Assembly (NCBI GenBank): GCA_021813435.1
Contig: JAKAKR010000014.1
Span: 122,889-159,216 of the forward strand
Origin: Nanobdellota archaeon
GTDB taxonomy: Archaea; Nanobdellota; Nanobdellia; Woesearchaeales; UBA9642
Reading direction: 5' to 3'
Length of the DNA: 36,328 bases
Under the pieces are notes generated by a model. That model ran no database searches, was not told the origin of the DNA, and saw only the letters and a program-made list of their open reading frames with translations. Positions 25,716 through 33,653 of this stretch are shown piece by piece (position 1 is the stretch's first letter; the number at the start of each line of letters is the position of its first letter). Made by a program: the position numbers and the translations under genes.

Positions 25716-26507
25716 ATGGATTTCACCGCAGTTAAATATAACGAAATTATTGTAAGGGGAAATTATTCAAAAATTCTTAAGGCAGTAGCAAAAACAGAAC
25801 AGGGATCACAAGAGATTATAGTCAAGCGAGTTAATAATACTGCGCGTAAAACATTCTTACGAGAAATAGCGGCACTGCAATATAACGCAAACCCAGGCAT
25901 TATCCGGTTATACGGGTATGACAATAAGAAGAAAGAAATGTATCTCGAGGATCTTACGGACCAAGGCATCAGCATTTCAAGGTATATCGATCATAACGGA
26001 AAACTGACGCCAAAAGAAGCGTTACCCCTGCTGAGCTCGATAAGTAAAAGTCTTGCATATATCCATACAAGAACGACAGAAAAACCCGCATTTATCCACT
26101 ATGATATCTCGGATAATAATGTGTTTATCCTGAATGTAGCGGAAACAAAAATTATAGATTTTGGAACGAGTTTCGAAGATGGAGGTTATCCTGCAGAACA
26201 CGACACGTGGTGTATTGGAACGCCAAGGTATAACGCACCGGAAAAAATCACTAAGAATAGAAACAAAGAAACTACTGCAGTTGACGTTTATGCTTTCGGA
26301 ATTTTAGGGTATAAGATGCTTGTAGGAATCGAACCATTTACAGAAATGGTAGGTAGTCTCAACAGACAGATTTGTTTTGATTCCCCTGCACCTATTAATT
26401 CTACACACAAACCACTCGATAACATCCTAATGGATTGTCTTGCAAAAGACCCACGACAACGACCGAGTATGGATAACATTTACACGCAACTTGAACAGTA
26501 TCGATAG
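25716..26507 (+). CDS. Eukaryotic-like Ser/Thr protein kinase, minimal catalytic domain
   Basis: 263 residues, essentially only a kinase domain. Lys37 (IIVKR) and Glu50 form the ATP salt bridge. The catalytic loop is HYDISDNN with Asp130 and Asn135 (HYD instead of HRD). DFG is at 148-150 and APE at 174-176. DVYAFG holds Asp190, and Arg248 or Arg249 lies in the final subdomain (RQRPS). The glycine loop is degenerate (RGNYSK). There is no membrane segment or sensor domain. Its stop lies 12 bases before a metallophosphoesterase gene, so a kinase-phosphatase pair is likely made from one transcript. Substrate unknown. Confidence 0.92.
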   Translation: MDFTAVKYNEIIVRGNYSKILKAVAKTEQGSQEIIVKRVNNTARKTFLREIAALQYNANPGIIRLYGYDNKKKEMYLEDLTDQGISISRYIDHNGKLTPKEALPLLSSISKSLAYIHTRTTEKPAFIHYDISDNNVFILNVAETKIIDFGTSFEDGGYPAEHDTWCIGTPRYNAPEKITKNRNKETTAVDVYAFGILGYKMLVGIEPFTEMVGSLNRQICFDSPAPINSTHKPLDNILMDCLAKDPRQRPSMDNIYTQLEQYR

Positions 26508-26519
26508 GAAGAGCGCGCG

Positions 26520-27281
26520 ATGAAATATTTTATTGTTGGGGATATGCATGGATCAAGTATTAAGATATTAGATGAGATTATTACTGCGCTAAACCCTGAA
26601 GTGATTGCTAACACCGGCGATTACGATTCTCCAGAAACACTCAAAGAATTTTTCACACTCAAAGAAAAATACGAAAAACAAGGAAAAAAAGTCATTGTTG
26701 TTCCAGGAAACCATGATCATGCGATTTATAATAATTTTGAAATCCATATTACCAACGATACAATGCAACCGATCCAAGAGCTACACTACGCATTCCAGAA
26801 AGATACACTCGCACAAAAGTACCTTGAATCACTCATTCATGGACCAATACAAGCAGCGTTTTATCTTGCGCAAGAAGAATACCGCACACAGTATCCGACA
26901 GTGGTACTCCATGGCGCGTATCGAGGAAATCTCTCGAGTTACCCGAAATGCCCAACCCCGCTCAAACCGCTCTGGAGAAGACTGGAAAAAAAACAGGATC
27001 ATGAAGAAAATTTTGCAGAAATGCGTAAAATGAAATATCGCATTATGATCCGCGGACACGATCATGAACCAGAATTTGCTACACAAACCACAGGGTATAT
27101 CACTGGAAAGTTCACCACTAACACCAGAATTATGACCCCCCGGCTGAATAATGATGCACTGACAATATACCCCGACCAATACACTGTTATTACCCCCGGG
27201 GCATTCGAACAAGGATGTTTTGCAATCATTGAAACCACCAAAAAGAAGGACTACCCGTTTGTTGCATTCTACCAAATCTGA
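26520..27281 (+). CDS. Calcineurin-like metallophosphoesterase
   Basis: 253 residues with the metal-binding motifs in order: GDMHG (Asp8, His10), GDYD (Asp34), GNHDH (Asn64, His65), LHG (His131) and GHDH (His180, His182). It lacks the GDxVDRG motif of PPP phosphatases, so the activity could be on phosphoproteins or on small phosphodiesters. It is downstream of the kinase in the same operon, which favours a phosphoprotein role, but that is inference. The start ATG follows GGAAGAGCG, a weak ribosome site. Confidence 0.9.
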   Translation: MKYFIVGDMHGSSIKILDEIITALNPEVIANTGDYDSPETLKEFFTLKEKYEKQGKKVIVVPGNHDHAIYNNFEIHITNDTMQPIQELHYAFQKDTLAQKYLESLIHGPIQAAFYLAQEEYRTQYPTVVLHGAYRGNLSSYPKCPTPLKPLWRRLEKKQDHEENFAEMRKMKYRIMIRGHDHEPEFATQTTGYITGKFTTNTRIMTPRLNNDALTIYPDQYTVITPGAFEQGCFAIIETTKKKDYPFVAFYQI

Positions 27282-27319: not shown

Positions 27320-27574
27320 ATGGAAGGAATAATTGTCAATTACAGAAAGAGCGTTCACGTGCAGAAACCAAATCATGTTGTCGTATCGGTCGAAGGAATC
27401 GACACGAAAGACAAGGCAACAAAACTGGTCGGTAAAAAAGTTATCTACCACACTGGAAAAAAAGACATGATTGGTAAGGTTAATGCAATCCATGGCAACA
27501 AAGGCGCACTACGCGCAGTATTCGAAACAGGAATGCCAGGACAGGCGCTTGGCCAGAAAGTAAAAATAGAATAA
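27320..27574 (+). CDS. rpl35ae: Large ribosomal subunit protein eL33 (L35Ae)
   Basis: 84 residues, present in archaea and eukaryotes only. The beta-barrel fold shows as MEGIIVNYRKS, KATKLVGKKVIYHTG, GKVNAIHGNKGALRAVFE and the terminal PGQALGQKVKI, all family hallmarks. It is expressed from its own leaderless promoter. A T-rich stretch (27580-27600) follows the stop and probably ends transcription. Confidence 0.95.
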   Translation: MEGIIVNYRKSVHVQKPNHVVVSVEGIDTKDKATKLVGKKVIYHTGKKDMIGKVNAIHGNKGALRAVFETGMPGQALGQKVKIE

Positions 27575-27694: not shown

Positions 27695-28105
27695 ATGGAA
27701 ATAGTCATTATACCCGTGGTTGTCATTGGCCTTGTCCTTGCAATTCTCGAATTAGTATTTGTCCATCAGGATGAAACAGGCATGGGATGGATGAAACACG
27801 GATTGCACGCAATCCCCACCATGTTCATATTCATCTTTATCAGCATGAATATCCCGCTCGTACTTGAACTTGTGGGATGGAAAGACAACATGTGGATCAA
27901 CATCGGCATCCGCGTTGTTATCGGAATCATTGCAATGATCAAGATCGGTGCAGCTGCAGCAGTCGCAGGACGTGTCGGGGAAAAGCTCCCGCACACCCTC
28001 ATTATCGGTGCATTGATCATGGTCGCGCCCTATCTTTGGGAAATATTTTTGTGCACAATACCATTTATCAAATCATTGCCGCTCAGCGGCTGTCCAGTCA
28101 AGTAA
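27695..28105 (+). CDS. Four-TM membrane protein, unknown
   Basis: 136 residues with hydrophobic helices at about 3-23, 37-59, 69-90 and 98-118. His and Asp residues lie in the first loop (VHQDETGMGWMKHGLH), and Cys119/Cys132 frame the C-terminus. No family recognised. GAAGGTGG (27683-27690) supports the ATG, and a TATA-like TTTTTATATT (about 27643-27652) precedes a leader of some 25 bases. It is the first gene of an operon with the two large membrane proteins (10 bases to the next start), so it probably works with them. Confidence 0.8.
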   Translation: MEIVIIPVVVIGLVLAILELVFVHQDETGMGWMKHGLHAIPTMFIFIFISMNIPLVLELVGWKDNMWINIGIRVVIGIIAMIKIGAAAAVAGRVGEKLPHTLIIGALIMVAPYLWEIFLCTIPFIKSLPLSGCPVK

Positions 28106-28115
28106 GGTGTAAGTA

Positions 28116-30074
28116 ATGAGTGTACAGAGTAGGAACATTGTAGCACTATTTTTGGTAGTATTCTTACTAGCGACGCCTTTCGTATTCGGCGCAAATATCC
28201 TTGATCAGATACTGCGCCCATTTGCAGGAACAAATTTTGGGCAGACATATAACGCGTATTATTACTTTGTGGATGGCGTACTCTTTATTGTCTTATTTAT
28301 TTTTCTCTCCAAATTTGCGCTCGGAAAAAAGTTTGAAGGCCAACCTGCAGTTCCGATCATTATCGGAATTGTTGGAGGAATCGGGATGGCAGTCTTTGAA
28401 CTCCAAACCGGATTTAACATCGGCAAGATGTGGTGGTTCTTCGGACTGATTTTCTTCCTCCTTTTCGCCGCAGGAATATACTATATTGCAAAACAATTCG
28501 GGGCAAACACGCTTATCGCATTCTCAGTTGCGTATATCTTTTTTTATGTACTCGTCCAAAACACTGCGCCAAGCCTACTTGCACAAATCATGCAGCTGGA
28601 CTGGCTCGGGGGACTCATCTCAATACTATTCATCCTTGCTATTATCGGACTCATCTATGGGATCATCAAACTAGTCAAGGATATCAAAAGCGGAAACAAG
28701 GATTGGAACGCATCAGAAGAGACAGCAAATAAGAATAAAAATAGTTGGGGATCACTGTTTAACAACGAGAAGAGAGCAGCAAAAAAGTTCCAGAAAGCCG
28801 AGACAGAAGGAAAGGCATTTGAAGAACAATTAGGAAAATTACGTGAACTAGAGCAAACATTAAAAAATCAGGAGATTAAAACCCGTGAAGATTTCTTGAA
28901 GCAATTAACTGAATTGGAAAATGCACTGAATATGACTTGGAGGATGCAGGAAGGAATCCAAAAAGTAATATCAAAAATCGGACAGCCGGAGTATGCACAG
29001 TATGCTGCAAATATACAAGGATATGCAAACCAACTCAACGAATATATCAACACCATAAGAAGAGTGATAACCGAACTCAAAGAAAAGGGAGACAAGATAA
29101 TCACTGACGAAAAAGAAGAGTTCGACATAGGAAAACGAATTGCAAAAGCAACTCAGACGATCGCGCTTGATGAGCAGCAACTAGTAAATGCAGAGAAAGA
29201 TTATGCGTTCATAGAGCAACTTGATCCAGAATACTATGAATTGATGAAAGGAAGAATCGCAAACGTTAACGCTAAGATTACAGAATCGTTCATATCCAAA
29301 GATGATCAAGCAAGATTGCGCACTGATTATTTAACACAAATCGAAAAACTCGATAAAGCAAACGAACAGACGATCCAAAAAATGCTTGATCTTACGACGA
29401 AGAACAATTTCGAGACGCTCCGCTTCCAGTATATGTCGAGACTGTACGGTCTTGATTTTATCAAATCACAAAGTCTTGCACAATTATTCAAGTATGTTAA
29501 ACAGTTAAGAGAAAATGTTACTAAAATCATTGACTTTAAAACAAGATTCAATGCCGAAATAACAAAAGTTGAGGATCTCATCAAGAGAAAAATTGATACA
29601 TTAGACCAGACGGAACTAGAACTCAATAAAGATTTAGAAGAAATAATGAATGAGATGATTACACAATACAAGAGTATAGATCAAATACGCATAAAATATT
29701 ATCTTGCGATACATACGATACTGCAAAAGATTATTGCACAGACAGAAAATTTCAAACAGGGAAATATCGTCCCTGATTTCACACCGGACACTACACAATT
29801 AGTCACATTATCGCAGAATGTACAGGCCGACGTCAGCAATCTGAAGGGTAACAAAAAGTCAAAAAATAGAGAGATTCTGGTAAAAGATATCCGCGGAAAA
29901 ATACGGTCTGTCACGAAAGAGCTGAAAAGCCTGTTTGTTGAGGATAAGAAAACTAAAAAAATAAGTGTGAACACCACAATATTTAACAATATAAAAGAAC
30001 ACAAACAAAAACTTGAGACTGATTTACAATCGGTAAAGCGTACAGATACAAAGGTAGCAGAAGCACAAAAATGA
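28116..30074 (+). CDS. Multi-TM protein with long coiled-coil domain (paralogue A)
   Basis: 652 residues. A signal-like helix (8-25) and five membrane helices (about 48-68, 78-98, 105-125, 131-150, 162-186) are followed by a highly charged region from about 200 to the end. The charged region is rich in Lys, Glu and Gln, with heptad-like spacing over much of 215-640, so a long coiled coil or helical bundle is likely. Basic residues follow helices one, three and five, which places the coiled coil in the cytosol by the positive-inside rule. The membrane part is paralogous to the next protein: both share RPFxGxNxGQxY, a YYxFxD segment and MAVFExxTGFNIG. No family known to me. AAGGTG supports the start, and its stop overlaps the next ATG (ATGA). 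Confidence 0.82.
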   Translation: MSVQSRNIVALFLVVFLLATPFVFGANILDQILRPFAGTNFGQTYNAYYYFVDGVLFIVLFIFLSKFALGKKFEGQPAVPIIIGIVGGIGMAVFELQTGFNIGKMWWFFGLIFFLLFAAGIYYIAKQFGANTLIAFSVAYIFFYVLVQNTAPSLLAQIMQLDWLGGLISILFILAIIGLIYGIIKLVKDIKSGNKDWNASEETANKNKNSWGSLFNNEKRAAKKFQKAETEGKAFEEQLGKLRELEQTLKNQEIKTREDFLKQLTELENALNMTWRMQEGIQKVISKIGQPEYAQYAANIQGYANQLNEYINTIRRVITELKEKGDKIITDEKEEFDIGKRIAKATQTIALDEQQLVNAEKDYAFIEQLDPEYYELMKGRIANVNAKITESFISKDDQARLRTDYLTQIEKLDKANEQTIQKMLDLTTKNNFETLRFQYMSRLYGLDFIKSQSLAQLFKYVKQLRENVTKIIDFKTRFNAEITKVEDLIKRKIDTLDQTELELNKDLEEIMNEMITQYKSIDQIRIKYYLAIHTILQKIIAQTENFKQGNIVPDFTPDTTQLVTLSQNVQADVSNLKGNKKSKNREILVKDIRGKIRSVTKELKSLFVEDKKTKKISVNTTIFNNIKEHKQKLETDLQSVKRTDTKVAEAQK

Positions 30075-32368
30075 ATAAAAAATTATTATACGGGATATAC
30101 GCACTGTTCATGCTCCCTTTTGTCTCTGCCTATTCTAATCCGCTTGATCTTCTGTTCAGGCCGTTCTCTGGCGTAAACATCGGGCAGATCTACTTACTGT
30201 ATTACCCGTTTATTGATGCAGTCGTCTATCTCATCCTGTTCATGAGCCTTGCACAGTACGTCTTTGGCAAGGTATACAAGGGTGCCGATGGAAAACCGTC
30301 GCGGGAATCAAAAATCGTTGCCCTCGGTGTCGGCCTTGCATTAACATTTGCTATGGCAGTCTTTGAGATGCGCACAGGATTCAACATCGGACGATTAGAC
30401 TTCTATGCCGCAATAATCATCTTCATCATACTCTTTGCATTCCTCTACTTTCTCCTCAAAGGATTATTCGATGATGCAATGGTGGCGCTCTGCCTTACAA
30501 TCCTTATCATGTATGCAGTACTCTTCGGAGTGTTCACGACGATTTATTACTGGATACAACAGTACTCAGGACTACTAATGGCGATTATTACACTTGCCTG
30601 GATAGCATCCTTTGTTTGTGTTCTTATCAGGGTGTTCAAACTCTTCAGCGGAGGCGGCGGTGGTAATGATGGAAAACCCGGGCCGCAAGGACCACAGGGC
30701 AATAAAGGCGATAAGGGGGACAAAGGAGATAAAGGCGATGATGGAAAACTGAAACCTACACCAGAAATCCGTGTCTATGAACCACCCAAATCACATGTGA
30801 GACAGTTTGATGCAGTTGAACCGATTCCACTTCACTTTGATGTCATCAATGTACAATTACCATATACCTGCGTTGTCACAACACAGGGAAGGACTGGCGG
30901 CGTACATAATGTAGCTTCATTTGCAGGAAACAGTACACATAAGTACGCAATAAGAAACCTTCGCGCAGAATACGCACGATTCCCTTTTGCACCCATCGAC
31001 GAGTATCGAATATTTATCCGGTTGACTGATGCGAACGGAAAAGTGATCCGCGACCCAAATACCAACAAAGAATTACTCGGATTCACAGATATTGCGGTCA
31101 ATAATAAGAGTGATTGGGAAGTAAAGATCATTGACCCGCATGATAAAGAGGAAATTTGCGTTGGAACAAAAAAGAATATTACATTCAAGGTTATCAATCT
31201 GCAGACACTGACAACCCACGGATATAATTACAAACTATTTGTAAGGAATGTGCAGACTAAGCATATCATCGATACTCGTGAAGGCAGTAAGGAGACTGTT
31301 GATACAAAAACATTTACTGACATTATCGCGCTACTGCCTATCGGTGATTATGAAATTCTAGTGGTTGCAGAATCAATTGCCACAAAAGATACCCGGACGC
31401 ACAGCATTCAGCTGCGAATAAAAAATTGTGGAGATCCACCAAGCGATTGGGATGTGAAATTTAAGAGCCCACAAAGCAAAAAACCGTATACTGATCCCAC
31501 AAGACCGCCGCTTGCGGCAAGGATAAAGAAGGGAACAAAATATCCTCTAGAATTTGAGATTATTAATCCTGCACGCGTCATCCCTCCAGGGTATAAATAC
31601 GCGTTCTATATCCATAAAGTCGGGGAGCAGATGAGAATATCTAATCCAGACGATTATAATCCCGGTCCATTGACCAGCGTTACGCATATGATTACACTAA
31701 GGTCTGACCCTAAATATCTTATCGAAAATCTTGAGGTAGGATTTTATCAACTGCACATTTTTGCGCAGCGATTTGACAATCCTGAGGATAAGAAACGTGA
31801 TGACGTAACGATTGAGATCTACGAAGGTGGCGCGCCTGAAGATATTTTTTTAGAGATTGAACCTACCGCTGTCCCGCCCGGAAGTATCCAGATAGATAAA
31901 GAAAATCATAAATTCATCTATGAAAGCCCATATGTGAGAAATCACCCCTACACCTGCGGATTTAGCGTAAAAATAAACAAGACAGCCCGCGGGTATAAGT
32001 ATCGATACCGCTTCAGAATGGGATATTTCGACGATAAAGGAACAGGACATATTCTGCCTGTCATGATACTCAAAGAGTGTAATCTTTCTGCGCATGGAAC
32101 AAAAACACTTTCAAAGGGTCTTCCTGAACATGATTTCAGAGGAAAAATGGCTGAAGGAGGAAATTATCTGGAGACTGTAGAACTTGTCGAGGCATCAACT
32201 AACGCTAAAGGAGTATGGATTACATTTAAATCACTCGAAGATTATAAGTATTACACGCATGTTTCAATGTACTATATCGAAGTAGAAGCCATGCTAGTAT
32301 CGCCGAATAAGACAGGCGGAAAGGTCATAACAACGAATAAGTCATATTATCTCTATCGGATCGTTTAG
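30071..32368 (+). CDS. Multi-TM protein with collagen-like stalk and tandem beta-sandwich repeats (paralogue B)
   Basis: 765 residues. A signal-like start (1-20), then five membrane helices (about 46-66, 82-100, 110-130, 136-160, 167-190) homologous to the previous protein. A poly-Gly hinge (194-198) leads to nine uninterrupted Gly-X-Y triplets (201-227, of GPQ and GDK type), a collagen-like segment. The last 530 residues appear to be about four tandem beta-sandwich or Ig-like repeats, marked by two SDW-x-VK starts (near 355 and 463) and recurring VIN/IIN strands followed by G-Y-x-Y. The basic pattern predicts a cytosolic C-terminus, odd for a collagen-like stalk; an outside orientation remains possible. 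Translationally coupled to paralogue A. Confidence 0.85.
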   Translation: MNKKLLYGIYALFMLPFVSAYSNPLDLLFRPFSGVNIGQIYLLYYPFIDAVVYLILFMSLAQYVFGKVYKGADGKPSRESKIVALGVGLALTFAMAVFEMRTGFNIGRLDFYAAIIIFIILFAFLYFLLKGLFDDAMVALCLTILIMYAVLFGVFTTIYYWIQQYSGLLMAIITLAWIASFVCVLIRVFKLFSGGGGGNDGKPGPQGPQGNKGDKGDKGDKGDDGKLKPTPEIRVYEPPKSHVRQFDAVEPIPLHFDVINVQLPYTCVVTTQGRTGGVHNVASFAGNSTHKYAIRNLRAEYARFPFAPIDEYRIFIRLTDANGKVIRDPNTNKELLGFTDIAVNNKSDWEVKIIDPHDKEEICVGTKKNITFKVINLQTLTTHGYNYKLFVRNVQTKHIIDTREGSKETVDTKTFTDIIALLPIGDYEILVVAESIATKDTRTHSIQLRIKNCGDPPSDWDVKFKSPQSKKPYTDPTRPPLAARIKKGTKYPLEFEIINPARVIPPGYKYAFYIHKVGEQMRISNPDDYNPGPLTSVTHMITLRSDPKYLIENLEVGFYQLHIFAQRFDNPEDKKRDDVTIEIYEGGAPEDIFLEIEPTAVPPGSIQIDKENHKFIYESPYVRNHPYTCGFSVKINKTARGYKYRYRFRMGYFDDKGTGHILPVMILKECNLSAHGTKTLSKGLPEHDFRGKMAEGGNYLETVELVEASTNAKGVWITFKSLEDYKYYTHVSMYYIEVEAMLVSPNKTGGKVITTNKSYYLYRIV
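30671..30751 (+). repeat. Coding repeat for collagen-like Gly-X-Y triplets
   Basis: Nine-codon-period pattern GGN-N-N without interruption. The central GGCGATAAGGGGGACAAAGG-type units are near repeats of a nine-base module encoding Gly-Asp-Lys, which could expand or contract by slippage. Confidence 0.8.
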
Positions 32369-32886
32369 GCGCTATAAACCTTATTCTCCAGTATCTTCTT
32401 CACACCGGGCGCAGAAATTCCATATGTTCGTCCAATCTCGCGTAATCCAAGTCCGCGACGAGCATCGGCAAATATTGCCTGAACGATCTTCATCTTCTTT
32501 TCATCAACGACTAATCGTCCATCGACAAGAATATACCCATAGGGCGCTCTTCCAATGTATTTTCCTTCGGCTTTTGCCTTTTCCATGCCTTTCTTTGTCC
32601 GTTTGGATGTCCCGCGGCCTGCTTTACGGAAGGTTTCAAGAACATTTGAATCAATCTTTTCACTGATATAGGTATTAAAGTATTTTTCTTCCTGCGGCGC
32701 AAATCTATCGCAGATCTTGCAAAGGACAGTGAGCAAGTCTTCAGTACAAGTTCGGTCACGAAATTCTTTAGCAACAACATGCACTACAATATCTTCGCAG
32801 GATTCATCGCGAAACCCACATTTCTGGCAGGCATAATCATATTTTACAAAGATTCTTTCTTTAAGTGATGAAGTGAGGTCAATCAT
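32365..32886 (-). CDS. HNH-like zinc domain fused to a recombinase DNA-binding domain
   Basis: 173 residues. Residues 14-62 look like an HNH or treble-clef zinc domain: CQKC (Cys20, Cys23), VVH (His36) and LCKIC (Cys56, Cys59). Residues 110-173 are a second copy of the PF07508-type recombinase domain found in the neighbour: PYGY, RLVVDE, IVQAIF, G-L-x-x-I, then an HTH with YGISAPGVKKILENKVY. It has no resolvase catalytic domain. The ATG overlaps the recombinase stop (ATGA), so the two are coupled. It may help the recombinase choose or pair sites; this is inference. It overlaps the convergent collagen-like gene by four bases. Confidence 0.78.
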   Translation of the reverse strand: MIDLTSSLKERIFVKYDYACQKCGFRDESCEDIVVHVVAKEFRDRTCTEDLLTVLCKICDRFAPQEEKYFNTYISEKIDSNVLETFRKAGRGTSKRTKKGMEKAKAEGKYIGRAPYGYILVDGRLVVDEKKMKIVQAIFADARRGLGLREIGRTYGISAPGVKKILENKVYSA

Positions 32887-33653
32887 GCGCCCTCACCCTC
32901 TTTTTCAATCCTATTTGCAGTATCCCATAGTTCCTGGCTGATGAGCGGCTTATGTGTCCCAGGGATCAATTCTCCTTTATACCGTATTTTTCCCGTATAG
33001 ATTGGATTTTTGATGATAGTATAAACTGACGATGGACTTACGCCAACGCGTTCTGCAATAGTCTTATGATCGACTCCTTGTATCCAGAGCTCAAATATTT
33101 CACTCACTTTTGGACCAGTGATAGAATCCATGACAAGTTTCCTATTCTGGTAAGTGTATCCATAAGGCGGCCGGTATAACGCTTCGCCTTGACTGATTTT
33201 GCGATCGAACGCCATTTTTACGCGCTCTTTAACCATGCCGCGCTCAAGCTGCGCAAAGACACCGATAATCTGAAAGAACGCTTCACCCATAGCCGAGGTT
33301 GTATCAATCTGTTCAGTCACAGAGGTAAAGTTGATGTTTTCTTCTTTTAATTCTTCAAGTGTTAAGATGAGATCCTTAAGTTTGCGTGAGAACCTGTCGA
33401 TCTTATAGACTAGAATCACATTAAACCGCTTTTCCTTTGCATTCTTAAGGAGTTCTTTAAGTGCAGGTCTGTCCATGCTTCCTGCTGAAAATCCCGGATC
33501 TTTGTAGACTGCATAGACCTCCCAAGTACGTGCAGTACAATAACTGGTGCATTTGTCGATCTGCGCGTCAATACTCAAACCTTCTTTAGCCTGTTCTTCA
33601 GTACTTACACGCGCGTAAATTGCAACTTTTTGGTTTTCAATTTTTTTAACCAT
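32883..33653 (-). CDS. Serine site-specific recombinase, short form
   Basis: 256 residues. The resolvase domain has YARVSTEEQ with nucleophile Ser17, Arg15, DPGFSAG, and YKIDRFSR (83-90). Next comes a recombinase DNA-binding domain (about 160-240) with PPYGYTYQNRKLVMD and the HTH-like GVSPSSVYTIIKNPIYTGKI. It lacks the long zinc-ribbon and coiled-coil end of large serine integrases; part of that role may be taken by the coupled downstream protein. It probably cuts and rejoins DNA at a nearby site. An inverted repeat at 33917-33946 is a candidate target or operator. Confidence 0.9.
   Translation of the reverse strand: MVKKIENQKVAIYARVSTEEQAKEGLSIDAQIDKCTSYCTARTWEVYAVYKDPGFSAGSMDRPALKELLKNAKEKRFNVILVYKIDRFSRKLKDLILTLEELKEENINFTSVTEQIDTTSAMGEAFFQIIGVFAQLERGMVKERVKMAFDRKISQGEALYRPPYGYTYQNRKLVMDSITGPKVSEIFELWIQGVDHKTIAERVGVSPSSVYTIIKNPIYTGKIRYKGELIPGTHKPLISQELWDTANRIEKEGEGA

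Follow-up and report, generated by a model that had tools for sequence, protein, structure and literature searches.

We describe an operon of three genes that encode a small protein with four transmembrane (TM) helices and two paralogous five-TM membrane proteins, hereafter anchors, which carry unlike long tails. Among relatives, like anchors are repeatedly paired with unlike tails, the four-TM gene recurs beside them, and in distant relatives both kinds of gene share an operon with a secretion ATPase and a TadC-like platform protein. As a plausible though tentative explanation we propose that this module serves a divergent type IV filament machine of archaea as a cytoplasmic scaffold anchored in the membrane, comparable to ArlX or ArlCDE of the archaellum. 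The window analysed here is a stretch of 36,328 nucleotides, positions 122889-159216 (G000:C15), of a 1.41 Mb Woesearchaeota-type genome.

Operon structure and genomic context

Three open reading frames (ORFs) of 136, 652 and 765 aa lie on one strand of the window, with intergenic gaps of 10 bp and then -4 bp. The initial annotation had proposed two coupled genes led by a four-TM protein, and the common strand, the ATGA overlap and the four TM helices all confirm this. The features are as follows:

27695..28105, + strand: four-TM "lead" protein, 136 aa (ORF; motifs FVHxDExGM, HGLHAIP and VGEK)
28116..30074, + strand: anchor protein 1, 652 aa, with signal peptide, five-TM domain and helical, coiled-coil-like tail (ORF, domain similarity, tail periodicity)
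28116..28694, + strand: signal peptide and five-TM domain of anchor 1 (domain HMM residues 11-191; K/R-rich inside loops)
28695..30071, + strand: helical, coiled-coil-like tail of anchor 1, without stop codon (Gly+Pro content, periodicity)
30071..32368, + strand: anchor protein 2, 765 aa, with signal peptide, five-TM domain, short collagen-like run and tandem beta domains (ORF, AF2 model)
30071..30667, + strand: signal peptide and five-TM domain of anchor 2 (HMM residues 7-196; helices in AF2 model)
30662..30751, + strand: ten Gly-X-Y triplets, anchor 2 residues 198-227 (sequence)
30905..32365, + strand: all-beta tail of anchor 2 from approximately residue 279 to 765, probably a tandem array of Ig/FN3-like sandwiches (strands assigned by DSSP in the model; low-confidence fold matches)
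30071..30074, + strand: ATGA stop/start overlap coupling both anchor genes (coordinates and sequence)

Upstream of the operon lies the gene for ribosomal protein L35Ae (27320-27574). A eukaryotic-type protein kinase gene (25716-26507) adjoins a calcineurin-like phosphoesterase gene (26520-27281) just upstream of the operon region. On the other side, a minus-strand ORF (32365-32886) with a zinc-finger/HNH-like start and a recombinase-like end converges on the stop codon of anchor 2, and overlaps by 4 bp a serine recombinase gene on the same strand (32883-33653).

A previously undescribed anchor domain

The membrane domains of the two anchors can be aligned over 183 residues (31% identity, E = 3e-22), so the shared five-helix domain proposed for them holds on alignment, whereas comparison of their tails gave no alignment (E = 0.27). 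An HMM built from the pair retrieved 52 domain copies in loci of relatives, thus the likeness within the window reflects family homology and not chance. A first scan of contigs with the membrane domain gave no matches, but later profiles do find the family, and the anchor profile (alignment A1) matches 81 of the 371 genomes of the phylum. Profile searching with this domain, a check suggested by the initial annotation, recovered other C-terminal fusions, the tails of relatives varying widely between coiled coils, Gly/Pro-rich stretches, one CarboxypepD_reg match over the Pfam cut-off and sub-threshold fn3 and PKD matches. Modelled with AF2, the 765-aa protein begins with a signal-peptide helix, which five long helices follow (pLDDT ~80-93); the TM helices span residues 45-68, 78-102, 111-132, 136-153 and 167-193.

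Conservation across 76 copies is concentrated in single residues (D 99%, Y 92%, F 86%, P 78%) and a weaker FE..GF motif; 75 copies have an aspartate close to where the first helix begins, and an alanine at the end of the signal peptide is kept in 84%. The signature put forward earlier (RPFxGxNxGQxY and MAVFExxTGFNIG) is therefore strict in the window pair but not family-wide.

No Pfam or NCBIfam family is matched above its cut-off by any of the three proteins, and searches of Pfam, NCBIfam and PHROG with the membrane domain and the four-TM protein gave scattered weak matches and no convincing family. The membrane domain likewise has no convincing PDB relative by sequence, in agreement with the earlier remark that no system of this build had been described. 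Within the libraries searched, neither the anchor family nor the four-TM family has been described, and a narrow literature search found no paper joining collagen-like proteins, archaea and DPANN. When compared with the anchor domain, neither the TadC platform nor the four-TM protein showed homology to it, and one anchor match, in G075, was discarded because its position falls inside a TadC gene.

VirB6 proteins have an outward N-terminus, five TM helices and an inward C-terminus. The anchors share this outline, and the Pfam TrbC/VirB2 profile gave sub-threshold, in-register matches to several of them (best per-genome E = 4.7e-5), which prompted us to consider the anchor as a VirB2- or VirB6-like inner-membrane part of an archaeal DNA-transfer apparatus related to type IV secretion systems. 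We regard this as highly improbable and rejected VirB2/VirB6 membership, since the likeness to VirB6/TrbL in helix number and orientation and the faint profile similarity to VirB2/TrbC are met by a negative profile-profile comparison: hhalign gave a probability of 3.8% with TrbC and of 0.2% with six-TM neighbours of TrbC from the same genomes that are presumed to be VirB6-like. No anchor exceeds the Pfam cut-off for TrbC, there is no Pfam match of VirB6/TrbL to the anchors, and 12 of 14 control genomes also have matches to the TrbC profile (E up to 1), which in two of them exceed its cut-off. Separately, loci L170-L176 encode archaeal TrbC/VirB2-like two-TM proteins, mostly near six-TM proteins, with a common G..F...S..DP.KR..AK-like motif.

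Two unlike tails

The tail of anchor 1 comprises 437 residues and is helical with heptad-type periodicity; its low Gly+Pro content (3.7%) and a hydrophobic periodicity of 3.5-3.6 residues (z ~7 against shuffles) agree with the coiled coil initially proposed. The description of the second tail as a collagen-like stalk with tandem beta-sandwiches stands in outline, as a Gly-X-Y run is present and the remainder is all-beta, but the run is only ten uninterrupted triplets long and the sandwiches lie in a low-confidence part of the model (pLDDT ~25-65). The Pfam Collagen profile matches anchor 2 below threshold (E = 0.01), and nearly all PHROG tail-fibre matches are confined to the Gly-X-Y run. Collagen-like adhesins and phage fibre proteins have such a run as well; here, by comparison, it is short, stands behind a five-TM anchor and stays under the Pfam cut-off. 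Runs occur at the equal position in the two nearest relatives (L032 and L033), and a run is also found in L132.

The best PDB fold matches of the 765-aa model were complement MG, FN3 and Ig arrays (E = 2e-7), and among the 50 PDB fold matches listed nearly all were beta-sandwich proteins; on the strength of this model the tail of anchor 2 probably consists of tandem Ig/FN3-like sandwiches. At the corresponding position relatives have sub-threshold PKD and fn3 matches and, in one case, a CarboxypepD_reg match over the Pfam cut-off. In L033 (9685-13618) the collagen copy of SURF_58 stops within an Ig-like domain that seemingly continues in the next frame; a frame change has probably divided a single gene into this copy and the following 934-aa protein, and the 934-aa protein was therefore left out of the topology evidence.

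Repeated pairing of like anchors with unlike tails

Two or three same-strand anchor copies were found in 24 of the wider family's 69 distinct loci, a count made on contigs many of which are short. A tree of 35 domains groups the collagen copies from the window's family into a single clade (support 100/99), which makes the window's anchor 2 an orthologue of the collagen-bearing anchors in two relatives and places the origin of the window-type pair before its two genera. Elsewhere in the tree two copies are sisters, with strong support in families f41, f81, f32, f111, f48, f95 and f38 (L054) and weaker support in f66 and f38 (L040). In about nine lineages, then, each of the two domains has the other as its closest relative, with most tails unrelated. 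Most pairs with two long tails have domain identities of 31-53% and no significant tail similarity, the exceptions being L055, L139 and, weakly, one L042 pair and L073.

Sister domains with unrelated tails imply either that duplication followed by tail replacement has occurred many times, or else that the domains have been homogenised by conversion. Both alternatives suggest that two like anchors bearing unlike tails are wanted. Repeated duplication of one anchor with replaced tails would be an unusual pattern irrespective of whether the module serves a filament machine.

The four-TM partner

Homologues of the four-TM protein were found in 60 of the 276 genomes of the order. Among the 34 distinct four-TM genes whose neighbourhood could be read, 27 have an anchor-family gene at most four genes away, as counted with the wider iterated anchor profile. 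The AF2 model of the window protein is of high quality (pLDDT 90.6, pTM 0.82) and consists of four long helices, for which there was no PDB sequence match and no PDB fold match (best E = 2.3). The window protein exceeds the cut-off of no Pfam family and its relatives give weak Pfam matches only; no viral contigs matched the four-TM alignment. Named relatives, besides archaeal metagenome-assembled genomes, are all Woesearchaeota or Nanoarchaeota, the closest being DeMMO2_15. A further family, with a coiled coil and multiple TM helices, is often found near the four-TM gene (L074, L077, L084, L085, L086, L087, L124, L129, L145 and L147) and presumably resembles DUF2391.

Predicted location of the tails

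A cleaved signal peptide followed by five TM helices would leave the tail on the inside of the membrane. Charge distribution points the same way: the density of K/R is higher in the predicted inside parts in 70 of 76 domain copies (sign test 6e-15, the copies not being independent), with 20.8, 14.7 and 11.4 K/R per 100 residues in the inside parts and 4.5, 9.2 and 5.1 in the outside parts. From charge and topology we infer that the tails lie in the cytoplasm, which makes surface fibres unlikely. The initial annotation had offered a surface, attachment or internal scaffold system, and of these the first two are not supported by the predicted inward C-terminus, which leaves the internal scaffold.

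Exported tails forming adhesive or sensory fibres at the cell surface would better account for the collagen-like, fn3-, PKD-, Ig- and CarboxypepD_reg-like domains, which are typical of extracellular proteins and fit the cytoplasm poorly, and in the collagen-bearing relatives L032 and L033 few K/R or other charged residues follow the fifth TM helix. We nevertheless consider this reading unlikely, given the topology and given that soluble proteins without signal peptide are common in anchor loci. In L126 such a protein, which also lacks TM helices, adjoins the anchor and is paralogous to its tail (E = 1.7e-47), and in other relatives the neighbours have C1 peptidase and CarboxypepD_reg domains. 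These neighbours could also be cargo, with the anchors forming the channel part of a system that secretes them: an 881-aa papain-type Peptidase_C1 protein with CarboxypepD_reg repeats and no signal peptide adjoins two anchors (L060, 4521-7163), and a papain-type Peptidase_C1 protein, also without signal peptide, adjoins one (L056, 5345-7132). Since this arrangement is limited to few loci, none of them in the window, we judge secretion of the soluble neighbours to be very unlikely.

We also entertain, with rather more doubt than the filament-machine scaffold, that the anchors define a class of membrane-tethered cytoplasmic scaffolds peculiar to this phylum, in which one anchor was repeatedly duplicated and its tails replaced, so that a collagen-like and titin-like (Ig/FN3) tail would stand inside the cell next to a coiled-coil partner. 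It would be surprising for Ig- and collagen-type domains to face the cytoplasm from an archaeal membrane.

Operon link to a secretion ATPase and a TadC-like platform

In distant relatives the module is joined in one operon with a secretion ATPase and a TadC-like platform protein, a link that the initial annotation had missed. In L124 the genes for the ATPase, the TadC-like protein, two anchors, a 71-aa two-TM protein and the four-TM protein follow one another on one strand with gaps of at most ~31 bp, and in L132 the order is ATPase, TadC-like protein, anchor and four-TM protein, again on one strand, with gaps of at most ~55 bp. The ATPase belongs to Pfam T2SSE (E = 1e-13), and the platform matches T2SSF weakly and below cut-off (E = 0.009). 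When the coordinate match lists of the anchor and TadC searches were compared by hand, a TadC gene was found at most 1 kb from an anchor gene in 12 of the 29 anchor-bearing genomes outside the order, which are class-level relatives (linked in four families: G293, G301, G307, G326, G330, G342, G344, G351, G354, G364, G415 and G438). In those of these loci that were read, a secretion-ATPase gene adjoins as well. Chance linkage at this distance is expected at well under 1% in a ~0.8 Mb genome with one such gene. KKG-type pilin-like proteins were recognised by eye in the L124, L125 and L128 loci; no pilins with a class III signal were seen in the window operon.

The window's own genome encodes an orthologous T2SSE ATPase (747 aa) and TadC-like platform (760 aa) together on another contig (L167, 988-6487; G000:C14), and the window operon is unlinked to this pair. 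A small coiled-coil protein accompanies the pair. The TadC family is near-universal in the phylum (363 of 371 genomes), so that comparison of its presence or absence with that of the less widespread anchor gives no support for the link; the module may be dispensable to the filament machine. Within the window's order the module frequently has L35Ae and TctA genes nearby instead of adjoining the ATPase, and its function there is accordingly carried over from the distant homologues.

This recurrent location close to L35Ae, with no filament gene seen around it, together with the great variety of tails, would suit a stand-alone internal organiser of the membrane, titin- or cytoskeleton-like, that shapes the envelope or places complexes and is unrelated to a type IV machine in Woesearchaeales. 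Against it, anchor genes as well as four-TM genes are part of the ATPase/platform operon in class-level relatives, and we hold such an organiser to be rather unlikely.

A possible scaffold for the filament motor

If the module does serve a type IV filament machine, the small four-TM protein and the two five-TM anchors presumably assemble together, and the anchors would hold their two unlike long tails in the cytoplasm. Such an assembly would most likely be a ring-, cage- or stator-like scaffold surrounding the machine's motor in the cytoplasm, which would consist of the ~750-aa secretion ATPase and the 710-760-aa TadC-like platform encoded by nearly every genome of the phylum. It may work in the manner of ArlX or ArlCDE in the archaellum, with lineages swapping tails freely. 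What we infer for the operon is that the three proteins assemble, that they contact the motor, that they serve the machine in the window's lineage and that they act as its scaffold.

In the crenarchaeal archaellum, ArlX is a membrane-anchored protein whose cytosolic ring surrounds ArlJ, ArlI and ArlH (PMC8978795). The module would resemble it in combining a membrane anchor and a cytoplasmic scaffold, here with a predicted inward C-terminus, and in being encoded, in class-level relatives, beside a FlaI/ArlI-type ATPase and an ArlJ/TadC-type platform. Compared by description, it differs in that ArlX is anchored by a single TM helix and carries a cytosolic domain of one kind, whereas the module has five TM helices, two paralogues with unlike tails and a four-TM partner. 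In the euryarchaeal archaellum the place of ArlX is proposed to be taken by ArlCDE, cytoplasmic proteins associated with the motor (PMC8978795); a motor-associated cytoplasmic role is what we propose here as well, but ArlCDE lack the TM helices of the anchors. Divergent type IV pilus islands of DPANN archaea, in which FlaI/TadC-type genes occur among unrecognisable signal-peptide proteins, were reported by Makarova et al. 2019 (PMC6393860, Fig. 2A), who interpret these "dark matter" proteins as diverse pilins (PMC6393860). The anchors, again compared by description, are unlike such pilins in being five-TM proteins with long tails.

The divergent type IV filament machine, which is encoded by nearly all genomes of the phylum searched, is possibly tied to host contact. 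Were the module indeed its scaffold, missing parts of the machine would be named, and the well-conserved four-TM gene would offer a handle for finding them. Beside the ATPase in three loci (L124, 13539-15149; L125, 14706-15761; L132, 2-980) there are also tandem five-TM proteins of 170-181 aa (FFDVLLPFLLxF...), which were recruited by the iterated anchor profile, score no more than 14% in hhalign and are possible distant relatives of the anchors.
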